From Candidatus Atribacteria bacterium 1244-E10-H5-B2 (GTDB lineage: Bacteria; Atribacterota; JS1; SB-45; 34-128): 20,095 nucleotides of DNA. Within the stretch, counting starts at the first letter, position 1. Each line of letters starts with the position of its first letter. Position numbers and translations under genes: made by a program. The stretch lies in NCBI GenBank assembly GCA_003575245.1, contig NMQN01000430.1, forward strand, positions 1-20,095, written 5' to 3'. Under the pieces are notes generated by a model. That model saw nothing but the letters and a program-made list of their open reading frames with translations. It did not search any database and was not told the DNA's origin. Shown piece by piece: positions 1-12,995 of this stretch.

Positions 1-52
1 TCATTCTTGGAGTGTGACAAAGAACTGTCTCCTGACACATAGAAGGATTTTG
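1..52 (+). repeat. 52-bp inverted repeat, left copy (REP-like)
   Basis: All 52 bases are identical to the reverse complement of 2240-2291; identity stops abruptly after this copy on the inner side. The repeat can fold on itself: GTGT (12-15) pairs with ACAC (35-38) and GACA (16-19) pairs with TGTC (26-29), leaving an AAGAAC loop and a TCCTG bulge. Small bulged palindromes of this kind resemble the REP elements mobilised in trans by RAYT (IS200-like Y1) transposases; that assignment is from memory of the family, not a search. The copy may extend left of the window. Confidence 0.85.
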
Positions 53-65
53 CACGTGTTATAGG

Positions 66-87
66 TTAGGCGACTCTTTTGCTTGGC
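66..87 (+). repeat. Inner imperfect inverted repeat, left copy
   Basis: The segment contains AGGCGAC followed by TTTTGCT. It matches the reverse complement of 1974-1994, which has AGGCGAC then TTTTGCT with one indel and a few substitutions. It lies 13 bp inside the left 52-bp repeat and just beyond the 3' end of the 69-aa gene, so the cassette has two nested inverted pairs. The match is short and imperfect. Confidence 0.45.
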
Positions 88-101
88 AAAAATAAAAAAA
101 A

Positions 102-311
102 TTATTTAGTTTTCTTGGCACCACGAACAAAAAGTCGGACACCTTCTATGCCTTCATAGGCATATGCACTATCTGGACTTATTATGCTTGGTAAACGACC
201 TCCTGAGGTGGAGAAAAGTTGAGCGTGATCAATATTACATTCTTTTAAAATTCTTTCTGCTTTCTTGCTTTCTTCCGAACGATCTCGCAACAAAATTGCT
301 TTCTTTTTCAT
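102..311 (-). CDS. Small glutaredoxin-fold-like protein lacking CxxC (69 aa)
   Basis: The layout resembles a short glutaredoxin/NrdH-type domain. It has an N-terminal strand (KKAILL, about residues 3-8), a helix (SEESKKAERILKE), then LPSI at about residues 41-44 where the cis-proline of the thioredoxin fold would sit, and an ending EGIEGVRLFV like the GxxxIxxFV end of glutaredoxins. The redox CxxC is absent: the corresponding stretch reads RDRSEES, and the only cysteine is Cys25. It is therefore unlikely to be a thiol oxidoreductase and may be a binding or regulatory version of the fold. A strong AGGAGG site precedes the ATG and overlaps the stop codon of the upstream 530-aa gene, so the two are co-translated partners. 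The fold call is pattern recognition only. Confidence 0.6.
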   Translation of the reverse strand: MKKKAILLRDRSEESKKAERILKECNIDHAQLFSTSGGRLPSIISPDSAYAYEGIEGVRLFVRGAKKTK

Positions 312-320
312 TTGTTCCTC

Positions 321-1913
321 CTATTTGCTTTTTCTAATATATTCAATAGTTTTCTCTACTAATGTTTCTGGGGATAGATTGTCATCTTCCCATAAAACAG
401 TTGCAGCCTGTTTATATGTACTGATGTAAAGGTAAAGATTATCAATATATTCCCTTGCTGTCTTAGTTATTAAATCAATAGCCTTTTGCGACTTATCACT
501 TTCTAAACCGTGTCTCGCGCCAACATAGATTATAGATTTATTGTCCATTATTTCCTTAAATACTTCTATCAAGTTGTTAATATTATTGCCAGCAGTGATT
601 AACTTTTTTTCTTCTTCTGAGTTCAGTGAAATAGATTCTCCAACTTCACATGTAATTTCCTTGCCTTCGTCGATTTTACTTTCCAAAATATCTTCTAACT
701 GTCTGCTTTTCAATTTATTTTGGTCTTCGGTTGGCATATAAATAAAACAATTTTTAACACTTCTACTGCCAGTTAGCTTTATATAGTATTGAATTTCTTT
801 CAATACACCGCCGGAGATATTACCATTGAAACACGGCCGATAAACAAAAAGAAAATCACTTTGTTCAACAAGCTTATGATCCCGAGAGCTTACTTGGACC
901 TCTATGTGATTGGACAAAGCTTCAAGTAATAAGTGAAATTCTCTGGAAGATTCAGCTTTTTTTCCCCATAGTGGGTCAATTTTTCTTTTAAGTGGCGGAA
1001 TAAAAAGTAAATCTATAGGATCTTGGTATTTTTTCGAGTCCCATCGTGGCATTAGTTTTGGCATATATACAATAGTTTGTCCATCTCTCTTCTCTTTCTG
1101 GATTCTAAGTTCATCAATAGTGGTTGGAAGAAAGCAAACGAATTTAGAAGATGATTTGTTCTCTAATCTATGAATTGCTCGGATCATCTGATTAGCTTTT
1201 CTTTTTTCTCCTCTTTTTTGCAAACGTCTGACCTCACTAATTGGATGGGAAATATAAAACTTAAGTTCGTCTTCAAAAATTAATTTGTATAAAGTGTCAT
1301 ACGAGTGCTTTACTGCGAAGACATAATGTGGAACGTTGAGTTCGTTAGCAAAATGCCTGGCCATCATTATTTCTTTCGATCTCCAATCTAATATCCTCAT
1401 TAATTCCAATATAGCACCTACCGGCTTAGTTGCCCCTCCATATGAAGGATTAAAAATTTGATCACGACATCTGAGTCTATCATAAATATCATAAATATCA
1501 TCTATCAGCGTAATAAATAAGTCAGGCTGGAATCTCTTCAGTAGCTCTGTCTTTACAGGAGAAAGATATTCAACTGTATAATGAAGATAGAAACAGGCAT
1601 GAAGAGTAATTAAAATATCTTTACTTTTATTTTCCTCATCCTCGATTTTTTTTAAAACAGATTTAAATGCCTTTTCCCAAAGGTCACAAAGAGCAGGAGT
1701 CGGTAACATTAATATCTCTCTTATCCAGACAATGGGGGAGTCAGCTTTCTTCTGCTCTTTTAAATAAATATTTTTCATCTCATTTTTAATCTTCAAAATG
1801 AAAGGTTCTGGGCGTTCTTTGGCAAAAGGTGAAGCTTGACTGATAAAATCTTCGCAGACCTTGTTAGTTTTTATACCTGGCTGTCCGGTAAATATTACTC
1901 GTCTTACCATCAT
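321..1913 (-). CDS. Kinase-like / nucleoside 2-deoxyribosyltransferase-like fusion protein (530 aa)
   Basis: No family is recognised with certainty. The N-terminus VIFTGQPGIKTNKV sits where a P-loop would be and resembles archaeal adenylate kinases (GxPGxGKT), but the GK pair is broken: G10-Q-P-G-I-K15-T16 lacks the glycine before the lysine. LITLHACFYL (about 101-110), then PDLFITLIDD and RLRCRD, resemble the THA, Pxx and RRxxRD segments of such kinases. The second half has YISHPI (220-225), SDFLFVYRP (352-360) and SGGVLKEI (367-374), an order seen in nucleoside 2-deoxyribosyltransferase-like folds (YxxGPI, aDxvva, GxxxEi). A role in nucleotide sensing or defence is conceivable but unproven. 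The ATGATG start has no Shine-Dalgarno of its own and overlaps the stop of a 13-codon leader ORF. The stop codon overlaps the ribosome site of the 69-aa gene. The pair lies inside the 52-bp inverted repeat. Confidence 0.75.
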   Translation of the reverse strand: MMVRRVIFTGQPGIKTNKVCEDFISQASPFAKERPEPFILKIKNEMKNIYLKEQKKADSPIVWIREILMLPTPALCDLWEKAFKSVLKKIEDEENKSKDILITLHACFYLHYTVEYLSPVKTELLKRFQPDLFITLIDDIYDIYDRLRCRDQIFNPSYGGATKPVGAILELMRILDWRSKEIMMARHFANELNVPHYVFAVKHSYDTLYKLIFEDELKFYISHPISEVRRLQKRGEKRKANQMIRAIHRLENKSSSKFVCFLPTTIDELRIQKEKRDGQTIVYMPKLMPRWDSKKYQDPIDLLFIPPLKRKIDPLWGKKAESSREFHLLLEALSNHIEVQVSSRDHKLVEQSDFLFVYRPCFNGNISGGVLKEIQYYIKLTGSRSVKNCFIYMPTEDQNKLKSRQLEDILESKIDEGKEITCEVGESISLNSEEEKKLITAGNNINNLIEVFKEIMDNKSIIYVGARHGLESDKSQKAIDLITKTAREYIDNLYLYISTYKQAATVLWEDDNLSPETLVEKTIEYIRKSK

Positions 1914-1951
1914 GATACACCAATTTTATCAGGAATAAAAATAAATTTCAT
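1910..1951 (-). CDS. 13-codon leader ORF coupled to the 530-aa gene
   Basis: The ORF encodes MKFIFIPDKIGVS. AAAGGA (1958-1963) is well placed before its ATG. Its TGA lies within the ATGATG that starts the large gene, an overlap typical of translational coupling. The large gene has no ribosome site of its own, so ribosomes probably arrive from this leader. It could also be a displaced N-terminal stretch of the large protein. Confidence 0.45.
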   Translation of the reverse strand: MKFIFIPDKIGVS

Positions 1952-1973
1952 CTTTAGTCCTTTGATTAAATTC

Positions 1974-1994
1974 GTCGAGCAAAATGTCGCCTGA
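1974..1994 (-). repeat. Inner imperfect inverted repeat, right copy
   Basis: Its reverse complement carries AGGCGAC and TTTTGCT in the same order as 66-87. It lies in the 5' leader of the cassette transcript, about 245 bp inside the right 52-bp repeat. The asymmetric spacing against the left end (13 bp) argues for two independent repeat families or for later insertions on the right side. Confidence 0.45.
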
Positions 1995-2130
1995 CTTAAA
2001 ATATCCAAACTGCTTTGTTTGTGCACGACTCTTGGTGGAGTTTCAAAAATAAACCACTATTTTTGTGTGTATATTTTTATATATCGGTAAGTTTACCATA
2101 AACTATTTTTATTATTTTAAAAATATTAAT

Positions 2131-2159
2131 ATTATATAATAATTTTGTATATAAGTAAA
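2131..2159 (-). promoter_or_regulatory. Sigma-A-type promoter of the two-gene cassette
   Basis: On the minus strand, TTTACT (2154-2159), a 17-bp spacer and a perfect TATAAT (2131-2136) form a good vegetative promoter. It would give a leader of roughly 170 nt before the small ORF at 1951. It lies inside the inverted repeat, so the cassette carries its own promoter. The rest of 1952-2239 is AT-rich with no gene; a weak hairpin (GTGGTTT against AAACtCCAC) lies near 2031-2056. Confidence 0.55.
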
Positions 2160-2239
2160 TCTACGCTTTTTTATTATATTTTTACAATTCTTCTCTTATT
2201 ATTTTTTCTTTCTAACTCCCCCATTAAAATTTACACTAA

Positions 2240-2291
2240 CAAAATCCTTCTATGTGTCAGGAGACAGTTCTTTGTCACACTCCAAGAATGA
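2240..2291 (-). repeat. 52-bp inverted repeat, right copy (REP-like)
   Basis: This is an exact reverse-complement match to bases 1-52. The flanking bases differ on the inner side (CACGTG on the left, TTAGTG on the right when read the same way), so the 52-bp unit has a sharp inner edge. No 2-10 bp target duplication can be tested because the left outer flank is outside the window. Confidence 0.85.
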
Positions 2292-2304
2292 ATATTTAAC
2301 TTAT

Positions 2305-2340
2305 TGAATCGCCACCAGCGGTTAAAAGAATTAGTCTTTT
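2305..2340 (-). pseudogene. Possible 5' remnant of a 6-phosphofructokinase gene
   Basis: The minus strand reads KRLILLTAGGDS and then runs into a stop a few codons later, next to the right 52-bp repeat. Phosphofructokinases begin with a strand and the ATP-binding loop of the form KRIavLTxGGDsPGxN, so this looks like the first dozen residues of such a gene. There is no start codon in frame; an AAGGTG lies shortly upstream. Twelve residues are few, so chance similarity cannot be excluded. Confidence 0.3.
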
Positions 2341-2410
2341 TCGATTTTTCTACACCTTAGTATTAATACGACAAGAGCTTTCAAAAATCCTTCTTTTTCT
2401 GGAAAATAAT

Positions 2411-2452
2411 TTATAAAAATATAAAAAGCCCTTCAGCAAATGCCAAAGGGCT
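2411..2452 (-). terminator. Rho-independent terminator behind tRNA-Asn
   Basis: On the minus strand AGCCCTT pairs with AAGGGCT (2446-2452 with 2427-2433) around a short loop, followed by TTTTTATATTTTTAT. It lies about 10 nt after the tRNA 3' end and would also stop any readthrough from the ABC transporter operon. Confidence 0.85.
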
Positions 2453-2462
2453 GGGAATGTCT

Positions 2463-2536
2463 TGGCTCCCCGGGTAGGATTCGAACTTACAACCTCCGGT
2501 TAACAGCCTGATACTCCACCGTTGAGCTACCGAACA
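2463..2536 (-). tRNA. tRNA-Asn (anticodon GTT), with weak stems
   Basis: The minus strand folds as a 74-nt cloverleaf with encoded CCA: acceptor TGTTCGG/CCGGGGA, D stem GCTC/GAGT, anticodon loop CTGTTAA, T loop TTCGAAT, discriminator G. The GTT anticodon gives asparagine. Pairing is imperfect: the acceptor has a G-G at the second pair and two G-U pairs, the anticodon stem TCAGG/CCGGA has an A-G, and the T stem GTAAG/CCTAC has an A-C. A promoter and terminator frame it, which argues that it is expressed. It may be a degenerate extra copy or a functional but unusual tRNA; metagenomic sequencing error is also possible. Confidence 0.85.
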
Positions 2537-2548
2537 AGGTCACAAGCA

Positions 2549-2577
2549 ATTATACCCAAAAACCTCATCCGAGTCAT
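2549..2577 (-). promoter_or_regulatory. Promoter of tRNA-Asn
   Basis: On the minus strand, ATGACT (2572-2577), a 17-bp spacer and a perfect TATAAT (2549-2554) lie just ahead of the tRNA 5' end at 2536. The position fits initiation a few bases upstream of the mature tRNA. It lies in the gap after the ATPase gene, where no separate terminator is visible. Confidence 0.6.
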
Positions 2578-2635
2578 AACTTTTTAAAACCCGGTCTTTC
2601 AATTGCTCCTTAACTGCTGCATATTTGTTTTTCTT

Positions 2636-3412
2636 TTACCTTTTCTCTTCACTAACTTCCATATAGTCCCCGGGCAATGAACCTACAATTAAACCAACTA
2701 CTTCATCAGTATTAGTCTTTTTCGTAATCCTTTCGGCTACTTTCTTACCTCGTCGCATGATTAACAGTCTTGTAGCAACTGAAAATACATCATGCATCTG
2801 ATGACTGATAATAATGACGGAAACCCCATGAGAGCTCAAAGTCTTCACTAAATTTAATACTTTTTCCCGCTCTGCTACTCCTAAAGCTGCTGTAGGTTCA
2901 TCCATAATCAATAACTTCGCATTCCAGTAAATAGAGCGGGATATAGCTACAGCCTGTCGCTGCCCTCCAGAAAGGATCATGATCTTATTTTTTAAAGAAG
3001 GTATGCTGATTTCTAAGCGATTTAACACCTTTTTAGATTCTTTTAACATATAATCATGGTCCAACACATCAATGAGGCCTAAAAATTTCTTTAATTTTTC
3101 TCGACCCAAAAAAATATTAGAATAAACGTCCATATTTTCAGCCAAAGCTAAATCCTGATAGATAGTTTCTATCCCGATTTTCAATGCTTCCCAAGGATTG
3201 CTGATTTTTATCCTGCTGCCTTCAAAAAATATCTGACCTACCTCGGCATGATATACACCAGAGATTACTTTAATTAAAGTTGATTTGCCTGCTCCGTTAT
3301 CACCTAAAATACCAACAACTTCCCCAGGATAAATTTGCATATCGAAATTATCAACTGCTGTTAAACCACCAAACCGCTTGGTAATGTTCTTTACTTCTAA
3401 TAAAGGTTTCAT
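2636..3412 (-). CDS. Sugar ABC transporter ATP-binding protein, half-size CUT2 type
   Basis: This is the nucleotide-binding subunit that powers sugar import. Visible motifs are Walker A GDNGAGKST (about 37-45), a Q-loop around IYQDLALAENM, signature LSGGQRQ (about 148-154), Walker B LLIMDEPTAAL (about 167-177) and the switch histidine in IIISHQ. CUT2 ATPases such as RbsA, XylG and MglA are usually about 500 aa with two fused cassettes; this 258-aa protein has one, as in FrcA-type systems, so it should work as a homodimer. It is the last gene of the operon, 10 bp after the second permease, with an AAGGAGG site. Because the neighbouring catabolic genes are xylAB, xylose is the likely substrate, although sequence alone does not fix specificity. 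Confidence 0.92.
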   Translation of the reverse strand: MKPLLEVKNITKRFGGLTAVDNFDMQIYPGEVVGILGDNGAGKSTLIKVISGVYHAEVGQIFFEGSRIKISNPWEALKIGIETIYQDLALAENMDVYSNIFLGREKLKKFLGLIDVLDHDYMLKESKKVLNRLEISIPSLKNKIMILSGGQRQAVAISRSIYWNAKLLIMDEPTAALGVAEREKVLNLVKTLSSHGVSVIIISHQMHDVFSVATRLLIMRRGKKVAERITKKTNTDEVVGLIVGSLPGDYMEVSEEKR

Positions 3413-3422
3413 TATACCCTCC

Positions 3423-4502
3423 TTATCTAATTTCCTCTTCTTTATGCATTAATTCAGGTGAAAACTGATCGACTAATACAGCAAAGATAAGTATACAACC
3501 AACAGCAATATGTAAATTATAAGTAGGAATACTCAAGTTTACCAAACCTATCTCTAATACACCAATAATTAGAGCACCAATAACTGTGCCCATTATTGTA
3601 CCTTTACCACCACTTAAACTGGCTCCACCAATAATCACCGCCACCACGGCATCTAATAAACGGGCACTGCCTGCAGGAGCCCTACCGGTTATAAATTGTA
3701 ACACATACATAACTCCAGCAAGAGAAGCAAAAAATGAAGATATCATATAAACCTTAATTAAATGGACTTTTACATTAACTCCTGCTCTTTCTGCCGCATT
3801 AATATTTCCACCGATGGCATAGGTGTGCTGGCCAAATTTAGTTTTAGCCAGAATAAAAGCAAAAATACCAATAAAAATAAAAGCAATGACTGTTACATTA
3901 GGAATAATCGATACTAAATGTTTTAATTCTTCTCTGCTCAGGTTTTCTGGCTTACCTAAAAAACTAAGAATCTTTCCTGGTAACCAGTAAAACAAATAAC
4001 CATGACCTAGTGACCCTAAAGAAGTAGGTAATTTATGAACAGGTACATTATTACAGATAATCTCGGCAAACCCATAGGCAATACCATACATACCAAAAGT
4101 TGCAATAAAGGGAGGTACTCTTAGTTTTGCCACTAAAAAACCATTGATAAATCCAGGAATTAGTCCTAAGAAAAGGGCGGTTAATATACCTATGGTTATC
4201 GCCAAAGGTTGAGAAAATCCTACTGTCCATAAATCAACCATTACTTTTGCGCTTACTACCGAGCTAAACCCAACCATAAATCCAATAGATAAGTCAATAC
4301 CCCCGGTAATAATAACAAAAGTTTCTCCAGTGGCTAATAAAAGCACAGTTGTCGAGGCTACCAGAATATTTTGTAAATTTTTTAAACTAAGATAATTCGT
4401 TCCGACAATACCAAAAAATACGATTTCCCCAATTAGAAATATTAAGATCCACCTTCTGAGTATATTAATTCCTATTTCTCTTGTTTTATTATAATTAATC
4501 AT
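3423..4502 (-). CDS. CUT2 sugar ABC transporter permease (second copy)
   Basis: This 359-aa polytopic membrane protein of the RbsC/XylH family has about 8-10 hydrophobic segments. It carries the family segments TFVIITGGIDLSIGF near residue 65, KLRVPPFIATFGMYGIA near 125, FGQHTYAIGGN near 222 and VIIGGASLSGGKGTIMGT near 285. Its start overlaps the stop of the upstream permease by ATGA (4499-4502), so the two are translationally coupled and probably form a heterodimeric channel. It is clearly paralogous to that neighbour over most of its length, consistent with tandem duplication. The inferred role is xylose or another pentose import with the adjoining ATPase and binding protein. Confidence 0.92.
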   Translation of the reverse strand: MINYNKTREIGINILRRWILIFLIGEIVFFGIVGTNYLSLKNLQNILVASTTVLLLATGETFVIITGGIDLSIGFMVGFSSVVSAKVMVDLWTVGFSQPLAITIGILTALFLGLIPGFINGFLVAKLRVPPFIATFGMYGIAYGFAEIICNNVPVHKLPTSLGSLGHGYLFYWLPGKILSFLGKPENLSREELKHLVSIIPNVTVIAFIFIGIFAFILAKTKFGQHTYAIGGNINAAERAGVNVKVHLIKVYMISSFFASLAGVMYVLQFITGRAPAGSARLLDAVVAVIIGGASLSGGKGTIMGTVIGALIIGVLEIGLVNLSIPTYNLHIAVGCILIFAVLVDQFSPELMHKEEEIR

Positions 4503-5599
4503 TCTCTATGCACCAACTCCGGAAAGAACTGATCAATCAAAATGGCAATAATTAAGATACAACCGGTTGCAATATATCGATAAAAAATAGGTAACCCCAT
4601 CATCATCAAGCCATTATTTAAGGTCCCAATTAATAATACACCGATGAGAGTACCCCAGATTGTTCCTTTACCACCTGTAAGACTTGCTCCGCCTATAACT
4701 ACCGCTGCAATTGCAAAAAGTTCATAGCTGGAAGTATATTGGGTATGCACACCCATATTCAATTTAAAAACTAATAATACGCCAGCTGCTGCTGCAAAAA
4801 AAGAAGAAATAATATAAATTTTAATCAAATGTAAGGGAACATTAATACCTGCTCTTATTGCCGCATCAACCTTTCCACCAATAGCATAAGTATGCTGTCC
4901 AAACTTGGTGCGAGATAGAATAAAAGCAAATATAATCAGAATAAAGGTTATTAATAAAATAGGTATAGGAATAACTTTTACCAAATTTAATATATCCTCC
5001 CTTTCGGTCAGTTCAGGTTTTATCAAAAAGGAAAAGCCCTTCTTGGGAGAAAAATAAGCCAGGTAGGCATTACCAATGTCTCGAACCTGTAAAGGTAAAA
5101 AACCAACGGGGAATCCTTCGCAAAGCCGCCAGGCTAAACCATTGGCAATTCCCCACATACCTAAAGTTGCAATAAAGGGAGGTACTCTTAATTTAGCTAC
5201 AAAAAAACCATTAATAAATCCCGGAATAAGACCTAATAAAAGTCCGATAAGTGAACCTGTCATCATGGAAATAATTGGAGAGTAACCAGCGGCATTTAAA
5301 TCTCGCATAATAATAGAAGAGCTGATGCAGACAAAACCCATAACAAAACCGATGGAAAGGTCAATACCTCCACTAATAATTACAAAAGTCTCTCCACTTG
5401 CCAATAAAAGCAGAGAACTCACTCCTAAAATAATATTATTAAAATTTTTCAGACCAAAAAAATTTTTTCCTAAAAAACTGAACAAAATTAACATGAATGT
5501 AAGAAAAATGAATGCCCAATTTCTACCCACTAAGAGTATCGTTCTATTTCTGCTAAGTTTTTCAAAATCGATAAAAAAATCATTATTTGACTTAGCCAT
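4499..5599 (-). CDS. CUT2 sugar ABC transporter permease (first copy)
   Basis: This 366-aa RbsC/XylH-type permease shares long stretches with the next gene (TFVIISGGIDLSIGFV, NGFFVAKLRVPPFIATLG, FGQHTYAIGGKVDAA, VIGGASLTGGKGTIWGT). Most CUT2 systems use one permease as a homodimer; two diverged copies in one operon suggest an obligate heterodimer. AAAGGAAA precedes the ATG. Ninety-two bp separate it from the binding-protein gene, and that gap carries a strong hairpin which may lower permease expression relative to the binding protein. Confidence 0.92.
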   Translation of the reverse strand: MAKSNNDFFIDFEKLSRNRTILLVGRNWAFIFLTFMLILFSFLGKNFFGLKNFNNIILGVSSLLLLASGETFVIISGGIDLSIGFVMGFVCISSSIIMRDLNAAGYSPIISMMTGSLIGLLLGLIPGFINGFFVAKLRVPPFIATLGMWGIANGLAWRLCEGFPVGFLPLQVRDIGNAYLAYFSPKKGFSFLIKPELTEREDILNLVKVIPIPILLITFILIIFAFILSRTKFGQHTYAIGGKVDAAIRAGINVPLHLIKIYIISSFFAAAAGVLLVFKLNMGVHTQYTSSYELFAIAAVVIGGASLTGGKGTIWGTLIGVLLIGTLNNGLMMMGLPIFYRYIATGCILIIAILIDQFFPELVHRE

Positions 5600-6872: not shown

Positions 6873-7316
6873 CTAACTGATAAGCTGTTTTGAATTTCTG
6901 TACTCTTTTTTTTCTAACCATTGGATCACCGCATAAATTCCTGCTCCACTTTGTACCGCCTTTGATGAGATACTGGAGAATTGAATATTCACTGCTTGTT
7001 CTCCAAATAAATAATGAGATACAGTTTCCCTAATAGGTTGAATTAAAGGTTCTCCCAATACGGCCATTTTCCCTCCAATAAATACAGTCTGAGGTCCAAT
7101 CATATGAATAGCATTCACAATAGCAGAACCTACCCAGGTTGCTAATTTTTTTACGATCGAGTTAGCAACCTGATTACCTTGTTGAAGTAATTCAGCTATT
7201 TCCTTTAAACTTTTTACCCGCAAGCCTTGAGAACTGGCCAAATGCAGTAAGACATCTACCCCGGTAATATCCTCCAGATACTTAAATTGTCCTTGCTCGT
7301 AACATAGAAAATGTCC
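6873..7316 (-). pseudogene. ROK-family regulator or kinase, N-terminally truncated
   Basis: The frame is open from just after a TAA (7317-7319) to a TAG at 6873-6875 and encodes about 147 residues matching only the C-terminal lobe of ROK proteins (XylR/NagC/glucokinase type). Features include a KYLEDITGVDVLLHLA helix where the zinc and GCLE region normally ends, MIGPQTVFIGGKMAV (the late glycine-rich IVIGGG segment), and the ending AVQSGAGIYAVIQWL. The winged HTH, the ATP-binding N-lobe and the sugar-binding residues are missing and no proper start exists; a TTG at 7241 is only an internal leucine. Full ROK regulators are near 380-400 aa. Lying between the xylose transporter and xylAB, it is probably the remains of xylR. 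Confidence 0.75.
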
Positions 7317-9043: not shown

Positions 9044-10555
9044 ATGGAATATTTATTAGGACTTGATATCGGCACCAGTGGGGTGAAAGCCCTATTGGTA
9101 TCCCCAGAAGGCAAGATTATTTCTAGCAAAACAACCTCATATCCTCTAAAAACTCTCCACCCCGGTTGGGCAGAGCAATCTCCCTATGATTGGTGGGAAG
9201 CCACTGTAAAAGTAATAAGAAAAACAATATCTAATATTCCTATTGACTCTAAGCAGATTAAAGGAATAAGTCTGTCCGGACAGATGCACAGTTCGGTCTT
9301 CCTTAACAATAAGATGAAAGTTATTAGACCGGCTATCCTCTGGAGTGATACCCGTACCTCAGAACAATGTAGGAAGATTTATACTAAAGTAGGAGGATTG
9401 AATCAGCTCATCCGTTATGTATCTAATCCCGCCCTGGAGGGCTTTACCGCTCCCAAGATCTTATGGTTAAGGGAAAATGAACCAGAAAATTACCAAAAGG
9501 TTAAATATATTCTTTTGCCTAAAGATTACATCCGCTACAGGCTAACCGGTGAGCTATTTACCGAAGTCTCTGATGCTGCCGGTACTCTGTTGTTTGAGGT
9601 AATAAATAAGAGATGGTCTACCAGCCTACTAAAAAAACTGGAGATTGACCAGGATTTACTTCCTCCGGTACTTAATTCATTCGATTTAGCTGGTAGGATA
9701 ACTAAAAATATAGCTGAGCAAACCGGATTAAAATTTAAAACTCCGCTAGTTGCCGGAGGAGCAGATAATGCCTGTGGAGCAGTGGGAAGTGGAATTATCC
9801 AAGAAGGAAGGGTAATGGTTAGTATCGGCTCCTCAGGGGTAGTCTTAGCCCAGACCAATAATCCTCAGGCTGATCAAGAAGGGAGGATACATCTATTTAA
9901 TCATGCCTGCCCGGATAGCTGGTACATGATGGGTGTAACCTTATCAGCAGGTATGTCTTATGAATGGTTACAGAAAAAATTATTTAACCGTAGTTTAGAT
10001 TATACTAAATTAGATCAATTGGCAGAAGAGATAGAGCCCGGTAGTGAAGGATTGATCTTCTTGCCCTATCTCTACGGAGAAAGAACACCCCACGCTGATG
10101 CTAATGCTCGTGGGGTATATTTTGGTATATCCGGAAAACACGACCAAAGACATTTTGTAAGGAGTGTCTTAGAAGGTGTAACTTTTGCTTTAAAAGATTC
10201 TCTGGAATTAATTAAAGATAAGGGGGTTAAGGTTAAAGAGATAAGGGCTATCGGAGGGGGAGCGAAAAGTGGCGTATGGCAGCAGATATTGGCTGATATC
10301 TTGGGTGAAGAGATAAATCTACTGAATGTGGAAGAAGGACCCGCCTTTGGAGCAGCTTTGATTGCCGGAGTAGGTATTGGTATATATGACAGTTTTGCAG
10401 AAGCAGTGAATAGGATTATTAAAGTTAAAAAGACTATCGTTCCCGGGATTCAAAATGCCGAAAGATATAATCAATATTATCAATTATATAAGAAATTATA
10501 TTATAGCTTAAAAGAAAATTTTAAAGAATTGAAAAAATTAATCAGTTCTATCTGA
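9044..10555 (+). CDS. xylB: Xylulokinase, FGGY family
   Basis: Phosphorylates D-xylulose to xylulose 5-phosphate with ATP, feeding the pentose phosphate pathway. It has the FGGY/actin-fold motifs in order: LDIGTSGVK (7-15, phosphate 1 loop), SGQMHSSV (78-85, where xylulokinases carry the substrate-binding Met-His), LWSDTRT (99-105), [10 protein letters not shown] (238-247, with the catalytic Asp241), [14 protein letters not shown] and [17 protein letters not shown] (adenosine region). The GQMH motif separates xylulokinases from glycerol and gluconate kinases. Length 503 aa is normal. Encoded directly after xylA, with a modest AGCAGGTG ribosome site. No clear terminator follows before the convergent galK. 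Confidence 0.94.
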
Positions 10556-11922: not shown

Positions 11923-12005
11923 TAGAATTTCCTCTTTATCTTACTTTGTATTTAAATATTTCTATAATTAATTCCTTGATAACTCTATTTTAACTTTGAT
12001 ATTTC

Positions 12006-12995
12006 TTATACCAAAACTATTTCTTGAGGTACTGTTTTTCTTAACTCTTGAGCTTTTTCTTCAGGCAAGCAATTATTAATAAAAGCTCCGACCCCTAACT
12101 CGCTTCCAGCTAAATATTTAAGTTTGTCTTTCGTGCGATAGGGAGGGTAGAATTCAATATGAAAATGGGAATATTCTTTGCCTGTTCCATTAGTAGGTTG
12201 TTGATGAATGGCCATGATATAAGGGAGGGTAAAACCAAAAAGATTATCAAATTTCATCATTAAAGTTTTTAATATTATGGCTAAATCAATCTCTTCCTTT
12301 TCCGAAAAATCATTAAAAGAAGGGAGATGTTTATTGGCATAGATGTGCACTTCATAACTGTAAGAAGCGTAAAATGGAACAAAGGCAGTAAATAAATTAT
12401 TGCTAATGATAATTCGTCCGCCATCTTTCTTCTCTTCTTCCAAGGTCTTGCAGAAGAGGCATTCCCCTTCTTTTTCTAAATACTCTTTGCTTGAATCCAA
12501 TTCCTGTTCGATAATTGGTGGAATAAAAGGATAGGCATATATTTGGCCGTGAGGATGATGAAGAGTCACCCCTACTTCCTCCCCTTTGTTTTCAAAGATA
12601 AAAACATAATCGATAAAGTCTTTAGCTCCTAACTCCCGATAGCGATCTCTCCATACCTTTACCAATTTAACATAACGACTTAATGGTTTTCTCGACATAA
12701 TCCCATCATGGTCAGAAGCAAATAAAACTACCTCACAAATTCCCTGAGCTTTACCATGTTTAAAAAATTTAGGATCTTTTTCGGTTACTTCTGGCAAGTC
12801 TTGTTGTAAAGATGGAAATTTATTTTCAAAAACTACCAAATCATAATCTTCGGCTGGTACCTCTGTAGCTAAACCTCCCTTTTTGGTAGGGCAAAGGGGA
12901 CAATAATCTTTCGGAGGTTTATAGGTCCTGTCCTGCCGATGAGTGGCTATTATTATCCATTGTTTCAGGATGGGATTCCATCTCAGCTCTAACAT
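12006..12995 (-). CDS. galT: Galactose-1-phosphate uridylyltransferase
   Basis: Transfers UMP between UDP-glucose and galactose 1-phosphate through a uridylylated histidine. Visible are RWNPILKQWIIIATHRQDR at the N-terminus, a zinc-type YCPLCP (Cys32, Cys35), the active-site HPHGQ (147-151, nucleophile His149), CLFC (179-182) and SHFHIEFYPP near 276. Length 329 aa is near the bacterial norm. Its start lies inside an out-of-frame 54-aa ORF (12919-13083) whose translation resembles the N-terminal extension of some GalT proteins, so the original reading may have begun at 13083. AAAAGGAG precedes the present ATG, so independent initiation is possible. galE is not in the window. Confidence 0.94.
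   Translation of the reverse strand: MLELRWNPILKQWIIIATHRQDRTYKPPKDYCPLCPTKKGGLATEVPAEDYDLVVFENKFPSLQQDLPEVTEKDPKFFKHGKAQGICEVVLFASDHDGIMSRKPLSRYVKLVKVWRDRYRELGAKDFIDYVFIFENKGEEVGVTLHHPHGQIYAYPFIPPIIEQELDSSKEYLEKEGECLFCKTLEEEKKDGGRIIISNNLFTAFVPFYASYSYEVHIYANKHLPSFNDFSEKEEIDLAIILKTLMMKFDNLFGFTLPYIMAIHQQPTNGTGKEYSHFHIEFYPPYRTKDKLKYLAGSELGVGAFINNCLPEEKAQELRKTVPQEIVLV

Follow-up and report, generated by a model that had tools for sequence, protein, structure and literature searches.

The stretch of DNA analysed here, referred to as the window, comprises positions 1 to 20,095 of contig NMQN01000430.1 from Candidatus Atribacteria bacterium 1244-E10-H5-B2, and carries near its left end a compact two-gene unit (65-1997, minus strand). 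The larger gene encodes a 530-aa protein (321-1913, minus strand) and is followed by a small gene encoding a 69-aa protein (102-311, minus strand). A 13-codon leader open reading frame (ORF; MKFIFIPDKIGVS) at 1910-1951 on the minus strand precedes the pair, its stop overlapping the start of the 530-aa gene, and short ORFs similar to it are present in two further copies of the unit, at loci L001 and L002. This gene pair appears to have spread recently, as a compact unit, among highly dissimilar bacteria and one archaeon.

The predicted model of the 530-aa protein is of high confidence and shows a nucleoside monophosphate kinase (adenylate kinase) fold in the N-terminal part (model residues 1-212), with a degenerate Walker A motif: the canonical GxxGxGK[ST] is replaced in the family by a TGQSGIKI-type sequence (27-row alignment). 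The fold is shared with archaeal adenylate kinases (6pjw, 6ln3) at 12-15% identity, from which the protein differs in lacking the Walker A lysine motif and in having a fused C-terminal part of ~315 residues. Conserved in this C-terminal part is a deoxyribosyltransferase-like succession of motifs, Y-x-SHPI and then SRD...VEQS...S-G-G-V-x-x-E, which we take to be the order found in the nucleoside deoxyribosyltransferase (NDT)-like effectors of some retrons. It differs from those effectors in having neither a PF05014 match nor a significant profile comparison, and the unit has no gene for a reverse transcriptase. A search with PF05014 at E ≤ 1e-8 for building a deeper NDT profile returned nothing from 10 genomes.

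The smaller protein (~70 aa in the family) has a predicted thioredoxin/glutaredoxin-like fold, which is plausible, with one of five models good and a best Foldseek E of 0.025; a CxxC motif is absent from all 14 aligned small proteins. Neither the 530-aa nor the 69-aa protein has a Pfam match at E ≤ 1 or a PADLOC-DB 2.0.0 family at E ≤ 1, and NCBIfam gave sub-threshold matches only. Single members of the large family matched Pfam weakly at best (E 0.0014, in 1 of 84 members), and sequence profiles of the family found no significant match in the PDB. Rows from the viral structure library were mostly kinase-like, none of them at E ≤ 0.001, and those of the VIA list span residues 1-215 of the 530-aa protein, so that the C-terminal part is hardly covered. 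Searches with tblastn found the large protein in neither phages nor plasmids; in viral contigs it is represented by a single fragment (49 residues, 41%), and for the small protein no relative turned up there. No description of the family was found in a literature search, among the matches listed.

The limits of the unit come from comparison with L001, a contig of a Hippea metagenome-assembled genome and the closest of the family loci to the window; in support of this placement, it shares 4.2 kb at 92% identity with G032, a genome of the same phylum. DNA homology to L001:8719-10633 stops at both edges of 65-1997 and amounts to 87% nucleotide identity over ungapped columns. Beyond the edges, the 3' flanks score 9 (shuffle mean 9.1) and the 5' flanks 21, within the shuffle range (mean 13.6, maximum 22). 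Both copies have an imperfect inverted repeat of ~25 bp at the homology edges, that is, terminal inverted repeats as in a non-autonomous DNA transposon. The 3'-side arm of the window copy (65-91, plus strand) reads GTTAGGCGAC-2nt-TTTTGCTTGGC... and the 5'-side arm (1970-1997, minus strand) AAGTCAGGCGAC-1nt-TTTTGCTCGACGAA; these are slightly diverged from the ends in L001, where GTTAGGCGAC is followed after 1-2 nt by TTTTGCTTGGCGAA. The inverted-end score is 24 in L001 and 16 in the window, and none of 2000 random pairs reaches either value. Because of the homology limits and the inverted-repeat ends, the transferable unit was taken as 65-1997. The 3' arm is also recognisable in the Altarchaeum copy, L002 (score 11; 99% null 9, maximum 13). 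Elsewhere, the 5'-arm form is absent from 24 other genomes of the phylum of genome G001 and the 3'-arm form from six other family-bearing genomes, and an 18-letter pattern drawn from the unit's own ends, judged too short to be meaningful, occurs in 55 viral contigs. At L001:10627-10698, a strong hairpin resembling an attC-like fold directly follows the sequence GCCTAAC at the 3' end of the unit (z -2.40), and the window has no such hairpin (z -0.32).

A family profile of the 530-aa protein identified 18 loci in a one-genome-per-species collection, and several bacteria and one archaeon have the two genes in this same order. The small gene lies 3' of the large gene in the window, L001, L002 and L003, the four copies which, together with ten database matches, make up the small-protein profile. 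Independent matches to this profile place it likewise in L004, L005, L006 (E 0.011), L008 and L009, and inspection by eye adds L010 and L018. The longer proteins of L012-L014, L016 and L017 are followed by no comparable gene, and L007, L011 and L015 gave no profile match. Among related organisms, the large family was matched in 0 of 24 other genomes of G001's phylum, 0 of 28 of G002's phylum and 0 of 9 of G003's class, counts for which genome completeness is not given.

Divergence between the copies is low. The Nei-Gojobori synonymous divergence (dS) of the large gene is 0.27 between the window and L001 and 0.51 between the window and the archaeal L002; control values are 0.27 for the kefB-like gene near the unit (G001 and G032) and 0.385-0.395 for a metE-like gene among three Altarchaeum-group genomes. 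In their silent sites, the cross-phylum copies thus differ by about as much as the kefB-like gene does between two related genomes. The ratio of nonsynonymous to synonymous divergence (dN/dS) for the window and L001 is 0.52, compared with 0.10-0.19 in four control pairs. The final 46 aligned codons of the large gene (after codon 480) carry 17.5 nonsynonymous differences and 1.5 synonymous ones between these two copies, an excess that, in so small a sample, hints at diversifying change.

The places occupied by the unit vary in related genomes. In L001 it follows a kefB-like gene (after 8041), and the same place in G032 (L106, after 4975) holds no unit but a TdeIII restriction endonuclease gene (Pfam E 4e-59) together with a type II methyltransferase gene. 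The L002 copy sits upstream of a metE-like gene, between two direct-repeat copies (9703-9867 and 11954-12121; 168 columns, 87.5%) that carry the 5' end of that gene. The same interval contains a Fic-domain gene matching the PADLOC candidate PDC-S04 in genome G039 and only ORFs of ≤65 aa in G038. This different cargo in relatives indicates that both the kefB and the metE places are variable cargo sites. Within the Altarchaeum group the metE-upstream interval (L002; L107:4240-6185; L108:1933-2795) differs in its cargo in each of the three genomes, and the start of the metE-like gene in L002 has a truncated duplicate.

Known defence genes adjoin the family at many of its loci. PADLOC, applied to 17 neighbour genes at 12 loci (L001, L002, L007, L011 and L015 lay outside these tests) with E ≤ 1e-3 counted as positive, recognised 13 of the 17 genes, at 9 of the 12 loci; among controls beside kefB or metE relatives, 1 of 10 genes was positive (mad2). 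The neighbours in L003 are Aga_TIR and pAgo_I, which suggests a system that we name SPARTA-like, and ZorA, ZorB and ZorE lie just upstream in L005. A type I methylase/specificity gene ends ~30 bp before the family gene in L006, mad8 is found in L009, type II methyltransferases in L010 and L012, PifA in L016 and, with weaker matches, mad2 in L014 and IetA in L018.

An earlier note on this DNA had described a two-gene cassette bracketed by a 52-bp inverted repeat at 1-52 (plus strand) and 2240-2291 (minus strand), and had read it either as mobile cargo mobilised in trans or as a gene pair that landed between two copies of a repetitive extragenic palindromic (REP) element. The repeat is perfect, as the note had said, its arms being exact reverse complements, and it extends inward to 59 nt at 95%. 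Its 28-nt core occurs at two places only in the 20 kb when up to 3 mismatches are allowed, and in 0 of 100 shuffles. Because the contig starts at base 1, it does not show where the left arm ends on its outer side, nor the true length of the repeat. The two genes and the leader ORF listed between the arms stand, with the addition of a 66-aa ORF antisense inside the 530-aa gene; the promoter corresponds to a promoter-like site at 2131-2159 (minus strand), a consensus match only, which lies outside the conserved unit, and promoter-like sites in 1-2600 are as a set not above chance (12, compared with 9.6 ± 3.1 in shuffles). No transposase was recognised between the arms, in line with the note and with the lack of Pfam matches, and the proposal that the gene pair is laterally mobile cargo is borne out by its occurrence at unrelated loci and in unrelated hosts and by related genomes in which the same place is empty of the pair.

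The short, bulged hairpin of the REP type that the note had envisaged is not supported, as each arm folds as single-stranded DNA no better than its shuffles (z -0.54 and +0.77). The 28-nt core, at up to 3 mismatches, is also absent from all 12 family-bearing genomes searched, and neither the exact core nor two loosened patterns modelled on similar repeats matched viral contigs. Bases 1-60 match nothing in plasmids and, in phages, a single sequence at chance level (E 5); with bases 1-2600, the tRNA region was the sole match in plasmids among the best 20 of 36. The 52-mers are probably not the edge of a mobile segment: they lie 12 bp and 242 bp outside the unit, which matches the Hippea copy from 65 to 1997 and has inverted repeats of its own at these limits. 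A tRNA-Asn gene (2463-2536, minus strand) lies 171 bp past the right arm with its 3' end toward the cassette; no tRNA-Asn remnant in 1-2462 rose above the null, and in 1-3600 Rfam recognised the tRNA, with one further match at chance level.

Inverted-repeat ends around cargo with no part in transposition are characteristic of elements resembling miniature inverted-repeat transposable elements (MITEs). The unit shares such ends and such cargo with transposon passengers, among them the Tn3 toxin-antitoxin genes (PMC7157771), and differs from both kinds of element in that no convincing target duplication and no other copies of the ends in G001 were found and no mobilising enzyme is known. The 52-mer, with its partly palindromic core, is like the short repeats of the REP/REPIN class that move with REP-associated tyrosine transposases (RAYTs; PMC2817692, PMC3116915), and differs from them in its perfect 52-bp arms ~2.2 kb apart and its poor hairpin.

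Taken together, these results lead us to consider 65-1997, by a modest balance of probability, a compact unit of two genes, transmitted laterally among bacteria and archaea and most likely encoding a virus-defence (or toxin-like abortive) module. The pair resembles known two-gene defence modules while belonging to none of those tested, and defence is its candidate function. A fuller version, which we put forward tentatively and with considerable doubt, is that of a minimal immune cassette in which a kinase-fold sensor, a glycosidase-type effector and a redox-dead thioredoxin partner, set between short inverted-repeat ends, cross phyla and domains without a recombinase of their own. The non-canonical kinase-like half of the 530-aa protein, for which the usual phosphate transfer is unlikely, may sense a nucleotide-related signal, and the NDT-like half, with E372 (P0001 numbering, without the first Met) as candidate nucleophile, may act in infected cells by degrading a nucleotide or an NAD-type metabolite. 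Holding or gating the 530-aa protein would fall to its small redox-dead partner, and the leader ORF could couple translation. The unit would be moved in trans by some recombinase, or by general recombination, and the 52-bp repeat would be a separate repeat flanking the insertion.

Several observations weigh against a transferable defence module of this kind. The defence role is a proposal from sequence, predicted fold and gene context. For the C-terminal part, the resemblance to NDT lies in the order of motifs: this part has no Pfam match, its profile has no significant match in the PDB, and its hhalign comparison with three matches from the PF05014 search (one of them over the cut-off) was not significant. 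As for the edges, the 5' flank score of 21 is compatible with some faint similarity outside the 5' edge, the inverted-end score of 16 in the window is modestly above the null maximum of 14, the 5' arm is not recognisable in L002, and L003 has no such ends. In G001 the ends occur only as the unit's own two arms, with no further copy, and neither the window nor L001 shows a convincing target-site duplication, the exact ends being uncertain by 1-3 bases. At the level of context, the neighbours of L008, L013 and L017 are PADLOC-negative, and the three neighbours of L004, assessed by Pfam only, include no defence gene. The choice of neighbours was not blind, consisting mostly of large ORFs at one to three per locus, and two of them, that of L006 and one at L010, had been identified by Pfam as DNA methylases before the PADLOC test, so that 9 of 12 is to be read as an indication and not as a rate. 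The mad2 match in L014 is to the same model as the control match and may therefore be a generic methyltransferase.

An ordinary accessory operon of nucleotide metabolism, laterally transferred and without a defensive role, would account for the adenylate kinase fold, the lack of an experimental link to phages and the four loci without a defence neighbour (L004, L008, L013 and L017). We regard it as unlikely, given the patchy presence of the family in related genomes, the defence neighbours at the other loci, the elevated dN/dS and the non-canonical Walker A. Still less probable is that the 52-bp repeats are REP or MITE ends bounding a mobile unit 1-2291, with a RAYT or some other transposase acting on it in trans: the perfect repeat does enclose exactly this gene pair, and 1-2291 could be an outer element that received the inner unit, whereas homology to L001 ends away from the 52-mers, the arms fold like shuffles, and the core is missing from the 12 family-bearing genomes searched and, with its loosened versions, from viral contigs, bases 1-60 faring no better in plasmids and phages.

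We give a similarly low probability to an assembly effect, in which the contig ends in a repeat, the inverted repeat is a graph overlap or join, and the pair may not truly adjoin the tRNA-Asn region. The left arm begins exactly at contig base 1, as at a graph junction, and a join at the right arm itself is compatible with an intact unit; the unit, however, is intact, with ends and leader like those of L001, and 242 bp separate it from the right arm. Integron core sites follow the consensus GTTRRRY / RYYYAAC, and the GTTAGGC / GCCTAAC ends of the unit, with the hairpin after GCCTAAC in L001, recall an integron-type gene cassette. That identity is highly improbable, as the 5' core of the window is GTCAGGC, no comparable hairpin follows its 3' core, and homology stops at the core, leaving the hairpin outside.

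Further along the window, the adjacent genes of 3423-5599, by eye resembling two sugar ABC permeases, form a tandem of paralogues with 71-74% DNA identity in three blocks and lie within a sugar-use region that includes galK- and galT-like genes. The window's GalT is 86% identical to a protein labelled Atribacterota, its nearest match bearing an organism name, in keeping with Atribacterota as the most likely host. A lone 122-aa ORF at 6873-7241 appears by eye to be the C-terminal part of a ROK-family protein, and since it stands alone the gene may be decayed.

The absence of significant Pfam, NCBIfam and PADLOC matches, the high-confidence model and the known defence systems adjoining the family in distant lineages make it testable as a new immune module. 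The sharp edges of the unit, and the small differences between its copies in different domains, suggest that very small segments lacking a transposase can carry defence genes from one genome to another.
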